Source of the DNA: Komarekiella atlantica HA4396-MV6
GTDB taxonomy: Bacteria > Cyanobacteriota > Cyanobacteriia > Cyanobacteriales > Nostocaceae
Length of the DNA: 64,000 nucleotides
Direction: 5' to 3'
NCBI GenBank assembly: GCA_019359395.1
Contig: JAHHHK010000001.1
Coordinates: 248,001-312,000, forward strand
Both the position numbers and the translations under genes were made by a program. Positions 53,480 to 60,098 of this stretch are shown one piece after another. The notes beneath the pieces are model-generated. The model was not told the origin of the DNA, ran no database searches, and saw nothing but the letters and a program-made list of their open reading frames with translations. Each line of letters opens with the position of its first letter. The first letter of the stretch is position 1.

Positions 53480-53672
53480 TAACTTTAGAGATTAGGGACT
53501 GGTTAGACAAAAGGACAAGGTTAATAAATAATAGACATCTCCAAAAATAGAACGTAGAGACGTAGCAGCAATGATTATAGAGACGTAGCAGTGCTACGCC
53601 TCTACAAGGGTTCTGGATAGCGTATATTTAATTTATTGGAAATGTCTAATCAATAACCAGTCCCAATTCTTT

Positions 53673-54254
53673 TCAACCAAAATAACTGGGTTGGTTTCCA
53701 GGTTTCCATTTAATATTGCAACCAACACTTGGCTTTTGGTCATCTGTAACAGGTTTATCGGCTAGTACCGCTTCTATCGCTGCGCGTAAATCTTCACCTG
53801 TTACAGGTTTACCATTACTGGGACGACTATCATCTAATTGTCCGCGATAAATAAGTTTGCGCTCCCGATCAAATACAAAAAAATCTGGGGTGCAAGCTGC
53901 TGTATAAGCTTTTGCCGTTTCCTGGCTCTCATCGTAGCATAGGGTAAAAGTAAACCCTTGTTCTGTGGCAAATGCTTTTAACGACTCTGGCGCATCATCT
54001 GGATAATTTTTTGCATCATTAGCACTGATGGCAACGATCGCCACATCTTTTGTGAAATAATCTTTTCCTAACTGCGCTAATTCTTGTTGTACGTGCTTTA
54101 CAAATGGGCAATGCCGACAAATGAACATTACCAATAGCACTTTTTTATCTGCAAAGGTAGAAAGTGAAGTTGCCTTTCCAGATATAACTTCCGGTAGATG
54201 AAAATCTGGTGCTTGAGTGCCTATTGGCAGCATAGTTGAAGCAGTTAAAGCCAT
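53673..54254 (-). CDS. Thioredoxin-fold/AhpC-TSA family protein
   Basis: 193 residues. 'IGTQAPDFHLPEVISGKATSL' and 'VLLVMFICRHCPFVKHVQQELAQLGKDY' identify the thioredoxin/peroxiredoxin superfamily with a CxxC motif (CRHC). 'TPDFFVFDRERKLIYRGQLDDSRPSN' and C-terminal 'PSVGCNIKWKPGN' match the cyanobacterial thioredoxin-family proteins related to plant DUF899-like and alkyl-hydroperoxide-type reductases. Likely a disulfide reductase or peroxidase. Confidence 0.85.
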   Translation of the reverse strand: MALTASTMLPIGTQAPDFHLPEVISGKATSLSTFADKKVLLVMFICRHCPFVKHVQQELAQLGKDYFTKDVAIVAISANDAKNYPDDAPESLKAFATEQGFTFTLCYDESQETAKAYTAACTPDFFVFDRERKLIYRGQLDDSRPSNGKPVTGEDLRAAIEAVLADKPVTDDQKPSVGCNIKWKPGNQPSYFG

Positions 54255-54336
54255 AGTTCACCCGATATTTTTAACTTAGAAAACGGCTCTTACTATCAGT
54301 ATATTTTCACTCTATCACTAAATTTTCAATAAATTT

Positions 54337-54360
54337 AGAGACGAGAAATTTCTCGTCTCT
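54337..54360. terminator. Perfect 24-bp palindrome between minus-strand genes
   Basis: AGAGACGAGAAA is followed directly by its reverse complement. It lies 38 bases after the hli stop (minus strand) and may terminate that transcript. TAGAGACG ends recall dispersed repeats at 42828 and 53560. Confidence 0.6.
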
Positions 54361-54398
54361 TACATTAAGAGTTGCTTTATAAAAACTCAAATTCTTTG

Positions 54399-54614
54399 TT
54401 ACAGACTTCCCAAAAGACCAAGGATACCGTGTCCTGTCAGCACTTCTAATGCCATCAGAGAGACAAAACCAATCATTGCTAAACGACCGTTGAGTAGTTC
54501 TGCATAGGTAGTAAACCCTGTGCGATCGCCTTGCTCGTCTACATAAATCTTTGGCTCGATCGCAAAGTTGTTTAGTTTGCCCTGGTCGTCAACGATAGCA
54601 GTGCTTGTACGCAT
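54399..54614 (-). CDS. High-light-inducible protein (Hlip/SCP)
   Basis: 71 residues. The C-terminal single helix carries the chlorophyll-binding signature '[23 protein letters not shown]' (ExxNGRxAMxGF). N-terminal ~40 residues are hydrophilic. Hlips bind chlorophyll and carotenoid in the thylakoid membrane and protect photosystems during light stress. A possible HLR1 site lies upstream. Several paralogs are usual in a genome. Confidence 0.93.
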
Positions 54615-54637
54615 AGAAATTTCCTCGTCTTCTTTGG

Positions 54638-54655
54638 TATGTAAACAACTGTAAC
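54638..54655 (-). promoter_or_regulatory. Possible HLR1 (RpaB) site upstream of hli
   Basis: On the minus strand the sequence is GTTACAGTTGTTTACATA. This matches the RpaB-binding HLR1 consensus, two (G/T)TTACA(T/A)(T/A) halves separated by two bases, with one or two deviations. It ends 24 bases before the ATG. RpaB control of hli genes is established in model cyanobacteria; here it is inferred from motif alone. Confidence 0.45.
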
Positions 54656-54805
54656 AAAGTTGTTAATATTTGTAAAGGAAACTAAGGATAAACTTACATA
54701 CCAAAGGTGTGGTCTAGCTTGTTAAACTTTTCTCAACAATTTGCTCGACTGGCAGCAGATGTAGTGGTATGTTAACCTAGCTAGTTTTTTAAGTTTTAGC
54801 CAACC

Positions 54806-56299
54806 ATGACAGTAGCGGGTAAGGCAACCAAATTTGAGTACAAAGCACTGCACAAGCCTAATCAGCTGAACTATGGCAGTGGGCAAACAGCAGTGATTAC
54901 AGGATGGACGGTCAAGCAGGCGATCGCTAAACACCTGCAACCGCAAGAGTATGCTGTAATTGGGCAGTTGTACTCGCCCACACGGGGGATAAACTTACTG
55001 ATTCGCAATTTACTGTTTAATCCCCACGTCCGCTTTTTGGTTGTTCTCAACGCTTCTAAGGAAGATAAGAACGCAGGTGCATGTGAGTGCTTGCTGGACT
55101 TTTTCCGTAATGGTGTTGAAGAAAGTTTAAGCGATATTGGGCGCAGAGCTTGGGTAATTCGCTCTCCCATCCCTGGTTACATAGATATTGAAATTGATAT
55201 TAATACCTTAGAAAAACTGCGGAATTCTGTAGAGTATAAAGAAGTAAAATCAATTACTGAAGCAGTTAATCTAGTTAAGTCTTATGCTCAACGTGAAATA
55301 CTTGAGCCTTGGGGTTTGCGGCTAGAATTTCCTATGTCTAACGTTGAGCCAACTGTTTTACCAGGAACACGTTACGGACACAGAATAGAAGGTAAGACCA
55401 TAGCTGAAACTTGGGTAAAAATCATTCATCGGATTAAGACAACAGGAACAATTAGACCAACTGGCTATGATGGGCAATGGCAAGAATTAATCGATTTAAT
55501 GGCAATCATTAATGATGAGCCTGCTGATTTCTACTTTCCCGAACCTAATTATTTACCAATTGACCGACCTTTTCTTGAAGAATACGTTTCGCAGATTTTA
55601 GATGATGCGCCCTATCGAGAAGGGTTGAAATATACATACGGTCAGCGTTTACGTTCTTGGTTCGGGCGCGACCAAATTGGGCAGGTAATTCAAAAATTAA
55701 TAGGAGAAATTGATGCTGCTAGTGCAGTGATGAATCTATGGGATGTAAAAGACCACGAGAAAGGTGGTAGCCCTTGTCTTAATCACATTTGGTTGAGAGT
55801 TGTTGATAATGAGTTATCACTAACTGCAACTCTTAGAAGCAATGATATGTTTGCTGCATGGCCCGCAAATGCTATGGGATTGAGGGCTTTGCAACGACAT
55901 ATTAGGGATGAAATTGCTAAGCGTTCTGAATATGAATTAAACATGGGCCCACTGATTACTATCAGTCAGAGCGCTCATATATATGATGATACCTGGGATA
56001 ATGCGGAGAGGTTAATTGCAAATCAATACGCTACAATTTTGAACCAGCGTAGCTATTATGACCCCTCCGGCAATTTCCTAATTGAAGTCGATAGCAAAGA
56101 AATAGTTATTTCTCATACAACCGCTGGTAGTGGTGAGGTGATTAAGTCTTATCGTGGCAAAAACCCACTCAACTTATTAAGAGAGATTTGTGCTACTTCT
56201 CCAGCAATTCAGCCTGAACATACTGGTTATTTAGGTATCGAACTGCAAAAGGCTAGTAACTGTATTAAAAGTTGCCAGCCTTATATTCAGGATCAGTAA
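54806..56299 (+). CDS. Two-domain thymidylate-synthase-like protein (DUF4346-like N-domain)
   Basis: 497 residues. Residues about 25-165 resemble the DUF4346/MtrA-like domain ('YAVIGQLYSPTRGINLLIRN', 'NPHVRFLVVLNASKEDKNAGACECLLDFFRNGVEE'). From about 210 on, a ThyA-type fold appears: catalytic Cys324 in 'GGSPCLNHIWLRV', 'LRSNDMFAAWPANAMGLRAL' with the Asn that selects dUMP over dCMP, and 'GPLITISQSAHIYDDTWDNAE', the SAHIY block. Spacing fits methanogen-type thymidylate synthase more than E. coli ThyA. It could make dTMP with a C1 donor or a modified pyrimidine. It leads a co-directional row of deoxypyrimidine genes. Confidence 0.78.
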   Translation: MTVAGKATKFEYKALHKPNQLNYGSGQTAVITGWTVKQAIAKHLQPQEYAVIGQLYSPTRGINLLIRNLLFNPHVRFLVVLNASKEDKNAGACECLLDFFRNGVEESLSDIGRRAWVIRSPIPGYIDIEIDINTLEKLRNSVEYKEVKSITEAVNLVKSYAQREILEPWGLRLEFPMSNVEPTVLPGTRYGHRIEGKTIAETWVKIIHRIKTTGTIRPTGYDGQWQELIDLMAIINDEPADFYFPEPNYLPIDRPFLEEYVSQILDDAPYREGLKYTYGQRLRSWFGRDQIGQVIQKLIGEIDAASAVMNLWDVKDHEKGGSPCLNHIWLRVVDNELSLTATLRSNDMFAAWPANAMGLRALQRHIRDEIAKRSEYELNMGPLITISQSAHIYDDTWDNAERLIANQYATILNQRSYYDPSGNFLIEVDSKEIVISHTTAGSGEVIKSYRGKNPLNLLREICATSPAIQPEHTGYLGIELQKASNCIKSCQPYIQDQ

Positions 56300-56542
56300 G
56301 CAAAAAAACCGTAATCCATACAAGTATTTAACAGTGCTTACATAAACATTAGCGACATAAAATTAACCTGTATTTTGCAATACACTAGAACATAGCTTAA
56401 AATACGTGTAGCAAAAGTAGCATTTTAATTAAAAAAGTTAGGGCGTCTTATTTAGCTACTGATTAAATGCGCTTGACTTTATAACTACATTTAAATGTGT
56501 TTGTAGAAAGTTCTAGTGGTTTGTGAAATAAAGGAGTATTGG

Positions 56543-57307
56543 ATGTCAGTCTTGAGCGATAGAGATATTATTAGGGAACTTGGTAAAAGTATACTTTTTC
56601 ATCCTCTCAAGCCAGGTAGTATTAATGCTTGTGATTTATGTCTAACCGCTAGCGAATATGCATATGCTATTGGACAGCAAAAACGTTTGGCTATTGAAAC
56701 AGAACCAAAGAAAGACAAGCCTGGTGAAGAACAGCAATTTTTCTACATACCACCAAGGGATACAGCTCTAGTATGGACTGATGAATCAATCTGGCTAAAT
56801 AATTATATGTGCGGTTTGATTAACTCAAGGGTGGGTTTAGTCTCTCAAGGTCTAGGCCATCTTGGAACCAGGGTTAATCCTTCTTGGTCAGGTGTTTTGT
56901 GCATAGCCCTTCATAATGTCTCAAATGAACCACTAAGAATTAATGTTAGAGACATTAATGAACCGATTGCCTATTTAATGGTTCAAAAATTAAGTTCCCA
57001 ATCTTCCAAAAACGGGAATATAGATATTCCGGCAAGGCTTGATATTCTTAATAATCTGCCTAATACTAATGAAATATATGCGTTTTTCTCTAAAAGAAAA
57101 AATAAATGGATGTCAGATGATAAAATTCAACTAAAAACCCTCTTACTTGAATCACATGAGTATAAGAAACTTAAACGAGGATTTAGTGACATATTTCTAC
57201 GAATTTTAGGTTCAGATGAACAGACTAGGTGGACGGCAATAGCTGCAATAGGAACAATATTATCAGCTTTTTTTGCAGTACTTCCTTTACTTATGGAAAA
57301 AAGGTAA
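56543..57307 (+). CDS. Membrane-anchored dCTP deaminase/dUTPase-fold protein, catalytic Glu absent
   Basis: 254 residues from ATG 56543, preceded by AAAGGAG. The opening MSVLSDRDIIRELGKSILFH and 'PLKPGSINACDLCLTASEYA' match the N-terminus of dCTP deaminase (LSDRDI ... PxSxDLxLG). Residues 91-150 ('GLINSRVGLVSQGLGHLGTR', 'VNPSWSGVLCIALHNVSNEP', 'PIAYLMVQKL') align with the dUTPase-fold core. At the catalytic position, where deaminases have Glu in 'VLE' after DPGW(S)G, this protein has Ala122. Residues 160-225 are charged and helical; 229-251 form one hydrophobic segment, WTAIAAIGTILSAFFAVLPL, with the short tail MEKR. So it looks like a nucleotide-binding but perhaps inactive sensor fixed to the membrane. 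The DNA is AT-richer than its neighbours. Confidence 0.7.
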   Translation: MSVLSDRDIIRELGKSILFHPLKPGSINACDLCLTASEYAYAIGQQKRLAIETEPKKDKPGEEQQFFYIPPRDTALVWTDESIWLNNYMCGLINSRVGLVSQGLGHLGTRVNPSWSGVLCIALHNVSNEPLRINVRDINEPIAYLMVQKLSSQSSKNGNIDIPARLDILNNLPNTNEIYAFFSKRKNKWMSDDKIQLKTLLLESHEYKKLKRGFSDIFLRILGSDEQTRWTAIAAIGTILSAFFAVLPLLMEKR

Positions 57308-57363
57308 GGATATTTTGTAAGTTAATCAAAAGGAAAATATTATCTATTTAATATGTAAATACT

Positions 57364-57822
57364 ATGAACAAAGTATATGTATCTGGTGCATTGACTGATG
57401 TAGTAAATCTATCAGAAACCAAAGCACTTTATGAAAAAATAGGCTTGCTTTGTCAGGAAATAGGTCTTCAGGCTTATGTTCCACACAAACAAACTGATCC
57501 AATAAATAATCCCGATATTAGTCCTCGTGAGGTTTTTGACCAAGATAAATATCAGGTTAGTAGATCAGACTTAGTTATTGCTTATCTTGGCTCACTTTCC
57601 TTTGGTGTAGGAATGGAGTTAGCTTATGCAGAAACAAACAAAATTCCTATTATTCTTTTATATGAAACAGGTAAACGGATATCACGATTTCCACGCGGCA
57701 TTCCCTCTGTGATTGCTGAAATACAGTTTCACGATCATGAAGATGCTCTGAACCAACTTAGAAATATTTTAACGAAGTGGAACCCAGAGCATCCACAGTT
57801 TTCGTTGCCAGCAAGGCAGTAA
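57364..57822 (+). CDS. Nucleoside 2-deoxyribosyltransferase/DNPH1-like protein
   Basis: 152 residues. 'NKVYVSGALTDVVNLSETKALYEKIGLLCQEIGLQAYVPH' gives the Rossmann-like start with substrate loop; 'SRSDLVIAYLGSLSFGVGMELAYAETNKIPIILLYE' holds the DSxGxGxE-like block with Glu85 as the probable catalytic nucleophile. The family cleaves or exchanges the glycosidic bond of deoxynucleosides or dNMPs. It lies 56 bases after the dCTP-deaminase-like gene and 24 bases before the dCMP deaminase gene, so the three are probably co-transcribed. Confidence 0.78.
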   Translation: MNKVYVSGALTDVVNLSETKALYEKIGLLCQEIGLQAYVPHKQTDPINNPDISPREVFDQDKYQVSRSDLVIAYLGSLSFGVGMELAYAETNKIPIILLYETGKRISRFPRGIPSVIAEIQFHDHEDALNQLRNILTKWNPEHPQFSLPARQ

Positions 57823-57846
57823 AATAAAGTTTGAAATTGACAGATT

Positions 57847-58419
57847 ATGCAAAATATTTCTCCAGTCGAAGAACGCCACCAAAGACCAACATGGGATGAA
57901 TACTTTTTGATGTTGGCCAAACTTACAGCTACTCGCTCAACGTGTTTAGCTTTTCCAGTAGGTGCTGTAATTGTTAAAAATAAACAGGTAGTAGCTACAG
58001 GTTACAATGGCTCACCATCAGGTTCAGCTCACTGTACTGCTCAGGGCTACTGCTATCCAGGTTTAAGTAGCTGCGATGCTAGTAAAACTCTACCATCAAG
58101 GGCTGTACATGCAGAAGCAAATGCGATCGCCCAAGCAGCAAAGCATGGAACCTCCACAGATGGTGCAAGTATTTACGTCACTCTAGAACCTTGCCTCTCT
58201 TGTTTGAAGTTAATTATCTCCGCAGGAATTCAGGAGGTGTTCTATGAAACTTCTTTCAACGGCGGAGAGAACGCCTTGGTGAGAGATACCTTTATTAATG
58301 AAGGTTTAGTTACTTTTAAACAGATTGAGCTACCTGAAGCAACGGCACAACAAGCTGCTCAATTTCTCCTAAACCCGACATCTGTTGCTAGAGCAGTGAG
58401 GTGTGTTTACGAAGTTTAA
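57847..58419 (+). CDS. Deoxycytidylate deaminase
   Basis: 190 residues. Zinc site: His88-Ala-Glu90 in 'RAVHAEANAIAQAA' and Cys116/Cys119 in 'VTLEPCLSCLKLI'. 'STCLAFPVGAVIVKNKQVVATGYNGSPSGSAHC' is typical of dCMP deaminase (ComEB-type), which turns dCMP to dUMP, the substrate of thymidylate synthase. Extra Cys in 'AHCTAQGYCYPGLSSCD' suit a second zinc site seen in dCMP deaminases. The last gene of the row; the next gene is convergent. Confidence 0.88.
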   Translation: MQNISPVEERHQRPTWDEYFLMLAKLTATRSTCLAFPVGAVIVKNKQVVATGYNGSPSGSAHCTAQGYCYPGLSSCDASKTLPSRAVHAEANAIAQAAKHGTSTDGASIYVTLEPCLSCLKLIISAGIQEVFYETSFNGGENALVRDTFINEGLVTFKQIELPEATAQQAAQFLLNPTSVARAVRCVYEV

Positions 58420-58472
58420 TACAGCCTCTTATTTAAGAGTATTAAATTTAAAAACTCAAATCCTTGGATCGT

Positions 58473-59009
58473 TTAGGGGCGATGACTGCGGCGGATTTCT
58501 GTAATTTGATCTGCTACATCTAGGAGAGATTTCGGCATTTCGGGCCCTGTGAGAATGATATCGACATGGGGAGGGCGTTTTGCTAGAAATGCTAAAACTT
58601 CTGTTTCGGGAATTAAACCAAAGTTAATCGCTAAACTTAGTTCATCTAAAACTACGAGAGAATATTTACTTTCGCATACTACTTGTTGTGTATATTGCCA
58701 CAATTTTTGTAAGGCTTGGTTCTCCGGTTCGTCTAAGTGTGGTGTATCAATACAACGAGGCAAATCGCAGCGAATCCAGTCTAAATTTTGTCCTAGTTGT
58801 ATAGGTCGCTCCTGCCCTTGGCGAATGCCTCCCTTGAGGAATTGTACTATTAACACTGGTGTGCCTTGACCGGCAATCCTCAATGATTGAGCCATAACGC
58901 TCGTAAAAAAGTTACGATGTGAACTGGTGAAAACTTGCACTAAACCTTCAACTGGGTATGGTGAGGTAAGAGTAGAATTTATACTTTTGGTTTCTAATTG
59001 AGCAACCAT
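58473..59009 (-). CDS. CobO-like corrinoid adenosyltransferase homolog without P-loop
   Basis: 178 residues. The overall pattern 'EGLVQVFTSSHRNFFTSVMA', 'AGQGTPVLIVQFLKGG', 'DLPRC' and 'SLVVLDELSLAINFGLI' with 'DIILTGPEMPKSLLDVADQITEI' is that of cob(I)yrinic acid a,c-diamide adenosyltransferase (CobA/CobO). The Walker A normally found in 'VFTGDGKGKTTAA' is replaced by SSHRNFFT, so ATP binding in the usual way is doubtful. It is annotated in cyanobacteria as a P-loop NTPase family protein. Role uncertain. Confidence 0.8.
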   Translation of the reverse strand: MVAQLETKSINSTLTSPYPVEGLVQVFTSSHRNFFTSVMAQSLRIAGQGTPVLIVQFLKGGIRQGQERPIQLGQNLDWIRCDLPRCIDTPHLDEPENQALQKLWQYTQQVVCESKYSLVVLDELSLAINFGLIPETEVLAFLAKRPPHVDIILTGPEMPKSLLDVADQITEIRRSHRP

Positions 59010-59352
59010 AGATTAAGTTTAAAAAGTTACAACAAATTAAAAAGCTTTTGCTGAGAGTAGTTGTTACAAATCTGCCTGTCTAATCAGTCTGTTTTTTATA
59101 AACATAGTCTCTTGAGCAAATTGCCTTCTTAGTCAAACACTACATTTGTACTAAAGTCAAGAGCTATTTCGATTTACTTTATCGTAGTTTTCCTAGAATT
59201 AGTCGTAAAAATTAAAACATTCAATCGGTAGTTCTAGTTAAATGAAAAGCCGAAATTAGGGGCTAATTATCATCAAATGTTAGATTTATCAACTGTTTGG
59301 GCAAAACAGAGTTAGAAAGTAATAAATTTGACACGATGAGGAGTGAATTGTT
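59010..59352. other. Divergent spacer
   Basis: 343 AT-rich bases between the minus-strand CobO-like gene and the plus-strand adenylate-kinase-like gene. No gene, array or clear operator is seen. Confidence 0.5.
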
Positions 59353-59907
59353 GTGAGATTGGTGATTCTGGGAGGTTCAGGATCGGGAAAAAGCACTCAA
59401 GCACAGAGGCTTTGCAGATACTTTGATATTCCTCAGATTTCCACAGGTGATATTTTACGGGAGGCGATCGCTAATCTGAGCCAATTGGGTCATCATGCAC
59501 GGGTATACGTAGAAAAAGGAGAGCTAGCCCCGGATGAAATGATGATTGAATTGATCCGAAGTCGCTTTAAACAACCAGATATTAATTGTGGTTGGGTATT
59601 AGAAGGTTATCCCCGTACTGCCTTCCAAGCTGAGGAATTAGATTTTTGGTTAGATAATTTAGGACAAAAGCTAGACTGGGCAATTTATCTACAAGTACCA
59701 GAGGCAGTTATGGTTAGTCGCTCTTTGGGGCGTTCTTTGCCAGATGATCAACCTGAAATCGTGCAGCGCCGTGTAGAAATATTCTACGATCGCACCATTC
59801 CGATTTTGGAATATTACGACCGCCGTCGCCGTCTATTGACTATTAATGGCGACCAGTCACCAGATATGGTACAGCAAAATATTCTAACTCTGCTCTCAAC
59901 TCCTTAG
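59353..59907 (+). CDS. Adenylate kinase family protein
   Basis: 184 residues from GTG 59353, with GAGGAGTG upstream. P-loop 'ILGGSGSGKSTQAQ', NMP-binding 'IPQISTGDILREAI' and 'GWVLEGYPRTAFQAEEL' are as in adenylate kinase. The LID region ('SRSLGRSLPDDQPEIVQRRVEIFYDRTIPILEYYDRR') is short and lacks a zinc site. It transfers phosphate between ATP and AMP or another NMP. The cell probably has a second adk near the ribosomal protein genes, so this paralog may have different specificity. Confidence 0.9.
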   Translation: MRLVILGGSGSGKSTQAQRLCRYFDIPQISTGDILREAIANLSQLGHHARVYVEKGELAPDEMMIELIRSRFKQPDINCGWVLEGYPRTAFQAEELDFWLDNLGQKLDWAIYLQVPEAVMVSRSLGRSLPDDQPEIVQRRVEIFYDRTIPILEYYDRRRRLLTINGDQSPDMVQQNILTLLSTP

Positions 59908-60098
59908 AAAAAGATGTTTGTTGAGATCAATTTTTGGTATTCCTGCTTACTTAAAATTTCATCTTGGATCTTGAAAGTATATTTTTTATCTCATACTTTA
60001 TACTTAACCTTTTAACTGGATGCTGACCCTACGATACAGCACTCAGATGATTTACAACACTAAGGTAATCTTAAGGTATTCTATTTGAGGCAACTCCA

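Follow-up and report, generated by a model that had tools for sequence, protein, structure and literature searches.

An apparent replacement of thyX at its own locus in cyanobacteria, with a putative accessory pair of dUTPase-fold and DNPH1-like proteins

The alternation of the thymidylate synthases ThyA and ThyX among cyanobacteria is, as such, already known: Table 2 of PMC5954106 counts ThyA in 8 and ThyX in 23 of 31 cyanobacterial genomes. In humans, according to the accessible parts of PMC10305735 and PMC12348197, dCMP deaminase (DCTD) converts 5-hydroxymethyl-dCMP, and DNPH1 removes 5-hydroxymethyl-dUMP. In bacteria, the accessible part of the DefensePredictor study (PMC13092281) describes, among validated Escherichia coli systems, some that contain the domains of 5-hydroxymethyluracil kinase and thymidylate synthase; it also predicts systems with MazG, MazG-C, dUTPase and uracil-DNA glycosylase (UDG). 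Here we analyse a locus that touches on all these themes, in a stretch of 64,000 nucleotides (the window; positions 248,001 to 312,000 of contig JAHHHK010000001.1) from the 7.78 Mb genome of the cyanobacterium Komarekiella atlantica HA4396-MV6. Four genes encode a three-domain thymidylate synthase (TS), a protein of the dUTPase/dCTP-deaminase fold with a C-terminal hydrophobic segment (DCD-TM), a small protein of the nucleoside 2-deoxyribosyltransferase/DNPH1 superfamily (NDT) and a dCMP deaminase (CMPD) (Table 1). The original prediction had suggested that this cluster, in a row on one strand with gaps of 56 and 24 bases between the last three genes, could be a nucleotide-pool sensor or defence system, or a specialised salvage unit; coordinates and Pfam matches agree with the row as described, and the interpretation turned out to be half right. 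With moderate confidence, we favour the view that this is a locus for the synthesis of deoxythymidine monophosphate (dTMP) with a dispensable accessory pair, DCD-TM and NDT, for deoxyuridylate quality control.

In a sample of 292 cyanobacterial genomes, TS is present in 39 and a ThyX match in 249; the two coincide only in G127 (G, C and L are our labels for genomes, contigs and loci), so that 38 of the 39 TS genomes lack ThyX, a mutual avoidance with a Fisher p of 5e-41 when relatedness is ignored. Five genomes (G016, G035, G069, G173 and G245) have neither, and among these G035 alone has a conventional ThyA (PF00303); the other four, all from the cyanobacterial phylum, show no match to ThyX, this TS or PF00303. 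A set of 80 genomes, which includes all 39 TS genomes, was used for the PF00303, CMPD and Dcd (canonical dCTP deaminase) counts. Each of the 39 TS genomes contains exactly one PF00303 match, this TS, and in the window genome we found no ThyX match and no second PF00303 match. Strong CMPD matches occur in 32 and canonical Dcd over cut-off in 43 of the 80 genomes, with only two genomes, G118 and G262, containing both; two more have a weak CMPD match only. The supply of deoxyuridine monophosphate (dUMP) in cyanobacteria is modular. This comparison shows that the window genome has no recognisable thymidylate synthase besides TS and that TS and CMPD stand in for ThyX and Dcd; TS and CMPD look like housekeeping dTMP synthesis. 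The genome G262 also carries a tandem pair of canonical Dcd genes with a third DCD-like piece (G262:C262:17540-19149).

The locus shares its chromosomal place and its pathway with the cyanobacterial ThyX locus, in which ThyX is accompanied by Dcd or by dUTPase and dCMP deaminase, and differs from it in having TS for ThyX, dCMP deaminase for Dcd, and NDT in addition. In one family-level group (f1), an AhpC gene lies close to ThyX in eight genomes (G022, G024, G042, G068, G101, G199, G251 and G284); in the window and in many of its relatives, TS is the gene nearby. AhpC is visible in 25 of the 80 named loci, which are the best 80 of 296 confirmed loci and are biased towards near relatives; all counts of named loci below refer to this set. 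The gene order is AhpC-ThyX-DCD-TM-Dcd-CobO in G024 and AhpC-TS-DCD-TM-NDT-CMPD-CobO in the window. In another group (f6), G203 has ThyX-dUTPase-CMPD and G195 has ThyX-DCD-TM-dUTPase-CMPD, whereas two genomes from that genus, G039 and G099, have TS-CMPD; the downstream genes are common to all four loci and 58-96% identical. Thus, TS has displaced thyX in place in both families. ThyX and TS even lie side by side in three named loci: L132 (Nostoc favosum), where ThyX is full length, L134, where it contains an intein-like insert, and L138, where it ends after 155 amino acids. The locus offers an example in which an unrelated enzyme has taken over from an essential one on the spot, and in which intermediate states can still be seen.

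Long in-frame, intein-like inserts split ThyX in L134:2959-5040, G019, G087, G091, G191, G199 and G251; the insert-bearing open reading frames (ORFs) are 423-745 amino acids long, and each contains two ThyX pieces. Similarly split Dcd matches were observed in G116, G127 and G155. The one ThyX that occurs in any TS-positive genome (G127:C31:34718-35344, locus L125) is divergent and lies amid many short, mostly co-directional ORFs, an environment that may be phage-like. A PF00303-like match lies within a 383-amino-acid frame of a ThyX genome (G129:C7:1786450-1786755).

The two middle genes come and go. NDT is present in 10 of the 292 genomes, in all 10 with DCD-TM, TS and CMPD within a few kilobases, so that the co-occurrence of DCD-TM, NDT and CMPD, proposed as a check on the original prediction, is borne out, always beside TS. 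It reaches several families of the order and is thus not confined to close relatives; the housekeeping role that the same prediction had set against its own defence idea does appear, in TS and CMPD. A single-sequence search finds DCD-TM in 17 genomes, 15 of them with TS; a profile search extends this to 61 genomes, mostly through weak, ordinary dUTPase- or Dcd-like matches. Among the named loci, all 80 have TS, 46 CMPD, 31 DCD-TM, 21 NDT as a gene of its own, 19 Dcd, 7 dUTPase and 3 ThyX. Absences in compared loci, where ORFs come from a simple ORF caller, are weak where contig ends cut the locus. NDT is accompanied by DCD-TM in 19 of its 21 loci and by CMPD in all 21, with Dcd or dUTPase in view in none; when the window and two gene fusions are added, CMPD is present at all 24 NDT loci and Dcd at none of the 24. 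The 12 DCD-TM loci without a separate NDT include 8 beside Dcd, one chimera (L134) and the two fusions of NDT to CMPD (L144 and L154, in two genomes, from Kamptonema and Aphanothece), in which the reading frames are kept open. The recurrence of the four-gene arrangement in other genomes goes beyond chance.

On the TS tree, NDT undergoes at least 14 changes, DCD-TM 19 and CMPD 7, and of 8 independent pairs about 7 show a change in NDT together with one in DCD-TM (median p 0.016); in these counts, L134 was scored as DCD-TM without NDT, although it is actually an in-frame DCD-TM/NDT chimera (L134:8330-9127), which, compared with L141, was created by the loss of 417 bases and lacks the membrane segment. 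L131 has lost the pair in a deletion that runs from inside the TS/DCD-TM gap to just before the CMPD gene, and in L133, where the pair is likewise deleted, 61 bp of DCD-TM and the 3' end of NDT remain; CMPD is kept in both. That such loci never had the pair is ruled out for L133 by the remnants of both genes and is unlikely for L131. Because TS and CMPD are retained in these close relatives, the pair is not needed for dTMP. The genomic record thus identifies DCD-TM and NDT as an apparently accessory, dispensable pair whose members tend to come and go together. The original prediction had pointed out that the middle genes are AT-richer: the GC content of DCD-TM and NDT (0.354 and 0.373) is below that of TS and CMPD (0.412 and 0.433), ranks second and third from the bottom among the 53 ORFs in the window that reach 120 amino acids, and is lower than that of the neighbours in 19 of 19 loci with all four genes. 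The ratio of nonsynonymous to synonymous substitution rates (dN/dS), in three comparisons, is 0.11-0.13 for NDT, 0.25-0.32 for DCD-TM, 0.09-0.12 for CMPD and 0.11-0.16 for TS, which indicates that all four genes are probably under purifying selection, weakest on DCD-TM.

DCD-TM shares the fold family of dCTP deaminase (TIGR02274) and trimeric dUTPase; it matches PF22769 over cut-off (33.0 bits), whereas TIGR02274 (46.9 bits, cut-off 92.8) and the dUTPase family PF00692 (17.1 bits, cut-off 22) score below theirs. Unlike Dcd and dUTPase, DCD-TM has no deaminase Glu in any member examined, lacks the dUTPase Asp in the window branch, and ends in a hydrophobic segment. The catalytic Glu, which we take to be E138 of E. 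coli Dcd, is missing from all proteins of two overlapping sets: 28 proteins (17 cyanobacterial and 11 from plasmids), with A, P, S or T in its place, and 29 from named loci, with A, S, P, V, T or G. The canonical Dcd neighbours show the Glu motif in 26 of 28 cases by pattern, and inspection by eye reveals LTLE in the remaining two. Among E. coli entries of the PDB, the best match is 1xs4, which has Ala at this position, being presumably the E138A mutant; the best PDB match overall, 9ln0, a short 'dCTP deaminase', likewise lacks this Glu. Thus, without the Glu and below the TIGR02274 cut-off, DCD-TM is apparently not a deaminase. Of the 28 proteins, 20 retain the Asp and form a sister branch, and the 8 of the window branch have N or S instead (N in 13 of the 29); with Asn112 and a PF00692 score below cut-off, the window protein does not fall among the dUTPases either. 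A hydropathy scan, as distinct from a topology predictor, puts the start of the hydrophobic segment at residue 233, with 19 residues that average 2.32 on the Kyte-Doolittle scale. A C-terminal stretch with a mean of at least 1.6 is found in 27 of 28 and 27 of 29 proteins, the exceptions in the latter set being the L134 chimera and the short L197 protein. The original prediction, which had named the fold and a C-terminal membrane helix, missed the absence of the catalytic Glu.

NDT passes the Pfam cut-off for Nuc_deoxyrib_tr (PF05014) narrowly (29.8 against 28.8 bits) and contains the catalytic Glu85, which places it in the nucleoside 2-deoxyribosyltransferase/DNPH1 superfamily. Glu85 and Ser107 are present in 22 of 22 sequences, Tyr23 and Arg111 in 21 and Asp69 in 19. 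The Glu, the Asp and an S-x-x-x-R-G stretch are shared with DNPH1/Rcl and the nucleoside 2-deoxyribosyltransferases, from which NDT differs in its partner and gene neighbourhood and in the fusion to dCMP deaminase. DNPH1/Rcl is among its weak PDB matches (E 0.01-0.9).

In the proposed pathway, CMPD would convert dCMP to dUMP, and TS would convert dUMP to dTMP. NDT most likely would act in the manner of DNPH1, cleaving unwanted deoxynucleoside monophosphates, such as 5-hydroxymethyl-dUMP, and so keeping the thymidine pool clean. This compound would arise from a permissive dCMP deaminase acting on modified dCMP, the deaminase being adjacent to NDT or fused with it; the fusions fit a clean-up function. 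Joined to dCMP deaminase, NDT may be the bacterial counterpart of the route by which DCTD and DNPH1 would clean up nucleotides in humans. DCD-TM most likely would bind a deoxyuridine- or thymidine-type nucleotide at the membrane without deaminating it, as a tether or sensor for a partner enzyme.

The relatives of DCD-TM add a further dimension. The genes known from nucleotide-modification defence systems (5-hydroxymethyldeoxyuridine (5-hmdU) kinase, TS, MazG, dUTPase and UDG, as far as the accessible text of PMC13092281 describes them) recur near DCD-TM on plasmids and in three cyanobacterial genomes. In the window, in contrast, no HMUDK, MazG or UDG gene lies beside DCD-TM, whose neighbours are AhpC, TS, NDT, CMPD and CobO; such genes do adjoin it in L045, L081, L214-L217 and other loci. 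The three genomes carry a second cyanobacterial clade of DCD-TM after HMUDK_hel, DUF1643 and MazG/MazG_C genes (G251; G231, as a second copy; G048, as an 82-amino-acid fragment). From the plasmid records found (2 + 15), we inspected 11 loci, 2 bacillar and 9 proteobacterial. A Peribacillus plasmid has the order SIR2 (PADLOC PDC-S25, E 3e-159)-DCD-TM-dut, and a Priestia plasmid has DCD-TM-dut and, at a distance of about 2 kb, a BnzB-like gene. Among the nine proteobacterial loci, five have UDG (L211, L212, L213, L216 and L217), four a MazG-type gene (L211, L215, L216 and L217), five helix-turn-helix (HTH) and ImmA/IrrE genes (L211, L213, L214, L215 and L217), two HMUDK_hel (L214 and L215) and one Shedu (L216). 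L215 also has two neighbours annotated as TS, one of them confirmed by Pfam; L219 has DUF1643 and otherwise mainly housekeeping genes; and L218 has no telling neighbour. That the dUTPase of the DefensePredictor systems could be a DCD-TM is only a guess. The 5-hmdU theme that HMUDK and MazG genes bring to these neighbourhoods agrees with clean-up and with defence alike. DCD-TM can be viewed as a membrane-bound, apparently non-catalytic dUTPase-fold family that would link thymidylate operons to mobile nucleotide-modification systems.

Several observations weigh against a quality-control pair. NDT scores nearer to the nucleoside 2-deoxyribosyltransferase 7m5h (E 0.0046) than to DNPH1, and because of this its substrate is not fixed by similarity; the evolutionary rate of DCD-TM is two to three times that of the adjacent genes; the close relatives L131 and L133 have dispensed with the pair; close relatives of DCD-TM adjoin Dcd, dUTPase or MazG without NDT; and the plasmid relatives occupy defence-like places, which is unexpected for a purely metabolic role. 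The last point would fit an antiphage pair lodged in a thymidylate operon: a phage would shift the deoxynucleotide pools, DCD-TM would sense the shift and damage the membrane or release NDT, deoxynucleoside monophosphates would be destroyed, and phage DNA synthesis would stop. We regard this as possible, although not likely. The plasmid neighbours, the second cyanobacterial clade, the resemblance to the DefensePredictor systems, and the AT-rich, labile character of the pair, with its fast-evolving DCD-TM, all speak for it. Nevertheless, the home of the pair is a fixed housekeeping locus rather than an island, and NDT was found only there (10 of 10 genomes); NDT is missing wherever the DCD-TM lineage looks defensive; 2 of the 11 plasmid loci, L218 and L219, are of little help; and PADLOC gives no match for TS, DCD-TM or NDT of the window, and matches CMPD to a dCTPase model through the shared deaminase domain only. 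Among 50,697 phage records, neither NDT nor the window DCD-TM has a match; NDT is likewise unmatched in viral contigs and has a single distant match in plasmids. A phage origin of the pair is not borne out by these searches. A defence role for the whole cluster, as originally suggested, is rejected, given that TS and CMPD replace ThyX and Dcd; for DCD-TM, with relatives beside candidate or known defence genes on plasmids, such a role is possible. Judging from the gene neighbourhoods, a tie of the pair to defence is possible and would come from the relatives, not from the window locus. Rather doubtful, in our estimate, is the broader conjecture that DCD-TM proteins are membrane-tethered, non-deaminating dUTPase-fold sensors of deoxyuridine- or thymidine-type nucleotides, common to plasmid nucleotide-modification defence systems and the cyanobacterial thymidylate operon, where they would form a nucleotide-pool alarm with a DNPH1-like glycosidase. 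Our search of the literature on systems with MazG, dUTPase, UDG and transmembrane proteins returned nothing, and DCD-TM may already be described in work on nucleotide-centric conflict systems.

The quality-control pair also has to be set against metabolic and neutral explanations. DCD-TM might be the membrane-anchored dUTPase of the cell, with NDT and CMPD completing a dUMP-supply unit. With TIGR00576 at E 1e-10, the only dUTPase type searched for, no dUTPase is seen in the 10 NDT genomes. Only one of these (G262) has a canonical Dcd, the Asp is kept in the sister branch, an archaeal protein annotated as dCTP deaminase is reported, in the accessible part of PMC5122711, to be a dUTPase without deaminase activity, and the best PDB match, 9ln0, likewise has no Glu at this position. 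The substitution of the Asp by Asn or Ser in the window branch and the position of DCD-TM next to a real dUTPase or Dcd in several genomes make this explanation improbable. Less probable still is a view of DCD-TM and NDT as passengers in decay that no longer serve a function: the repeated deletions, the remnants in L133 and the L134 chimera are what decay would leave behind, but the dN/dS values well under 1, the joint presence across several families and the open NDT-CMPD fusions all speak against it.

TS shares its catalytic domain with methanogen-type thymidylate synthase (TIGR03283) and classical ThyA, and differs from them in the fusion to an MtrA-like domain and DUF4346, which had been missed when the protein was first called thymidylate-synthase-like, and in the lack of a DHFR_1 match in most TS genomes. 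PF00303 (52.6 bits, cut-off 24.3) and DUF4346 (76.4 bits) are both over cut-off; TIGR03283 scores 124.7 bits (E 3e-36), under its curated cut-off of 174.55, so the protein falls outside that family as curated; and the MtrA-like N-terminus is seen at E 0.008 with PF04208, below cut-off, and at E 0.0031 with MtrA in the PDB. The residues C324, R344, S345, D347, N355, H391 and Y393, presumably catalytic and located by alignment to E. coli thymidylate synthase, are invariant in all 37 aligned sequences, in line with the ThyA class; the alignment covers 37 of the 39 TS genomes, leaving out G103, with a miscalled start, and G002. The cobalt ligand of the corrinoid protein MtrA is His84 according to the accessible part of PMC4915002; it aligns to TS residue 88, and columns 84-94 contain no His in any of the 37 sequences, with the proviso that the MtrA match itself is weak. 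Corrinoid-dependent methyl transfer by this domain, at which the neighbouring CobO might hint, is unsupported as the cobalt-ligand His is absent. We found no earlier description of the MtrA-TS-DUF4346 fusion or of the locus in the literature searched (DUF4346; thymidylate synthase/tetrahydromethanopterin/cyanobacteria).

The ThyA-class reaction yields dihydrofolate. DHFR_1 (PF00186), searched at E 0.001, has no match in 30 of the 39 TS genomes, including that of the window (other reductase families were not searched); it is strong in seven (G030, G048, G051, G072, G103, G127 and G233) and weak in two, and the same search has matches in 9 of 14 control genomes. The absence of FolA from cyanobacteria is known and has been explained by ThyX, in the accessible text of PMC1971073 and PMC4531292; this explanation fails here because the TS genomes lack ThyX. 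A ThyA-class enzyme as the sole synthase found, without DHFR_1, thus poses a directly testable puzzle of dihydrofolate recycling.

In the layout of the locus (Table 1), the DCD-TM start, ATG at 56543, is also that of its homologues; GTG at 56516 gives a longer alternative. An Rfam scan of 53500-60000 returned no riboswitch or other RNA at gathering score. CMPD matches the Pfam family dCMP_cyt_deam_1 over cut-off, at 97 bits, and the TS proteins of Nostoc sp. MG11 and Komarekiella delphini-convector share 99% and 98% identity, respectively, with the TS of the window.

Table 1 Coordinates of the locus, its flanks and a related gene group (window positions unless a locus label is given)
Feature	Position	Strand	Remarks
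TS, three-domain thymidylate synthase	54806-56299	+	497 aa; MtrA-like ~42-152, methanogen-type TS ~194-407, PterinBD-DUF4346 419-496
DCD-TM, dUTPase/dCTP-deaminase fold with C-terminal hydrophobic segment	56543-57307	+	254 aa; Ala122 at the deaminase Glu, Asn112 at the Asp
NDT, DNPH1-like deoxynucleotide N-glycosidase family	57364-57822	+	152 aa; PF05014
CMPD, dCMP deaminase (ComEB-like)	57847-58419	+	190 aa; dCMP_cyt_deam_1
TS/DCD-TM gap	56300-56542	+	243 bases; pair deletion of L131 begins inside
AhpC/TSA-family gene	53673-54254	-	upstream flank of the ThyX/TS locus, conserved in f1
CobO-like corrinoid adenosyltransferase	58473-59009	-	downstream flank, conserved
HMUDK_hel - DUF1643 - MazG/MazG_C - DCD-TM group	L045:9162-12875, L081:4378-7884, L086:4754-7845		conserved; DCD-TM of L086 is an 82-aa fragment

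A further variant of the thymidylate locus was observed in an uncultured cyanobacterium (L189:1587-12501), where two HMUDK_hel proteins (one a DUF1643 fusion), MtrA-TS-DUF4346, a second TS-like gene (PF00303, 568 amino acids), an intein-containing Dcd and CobO follow each other consecutively, in a row that resembles a thymine-modification module.

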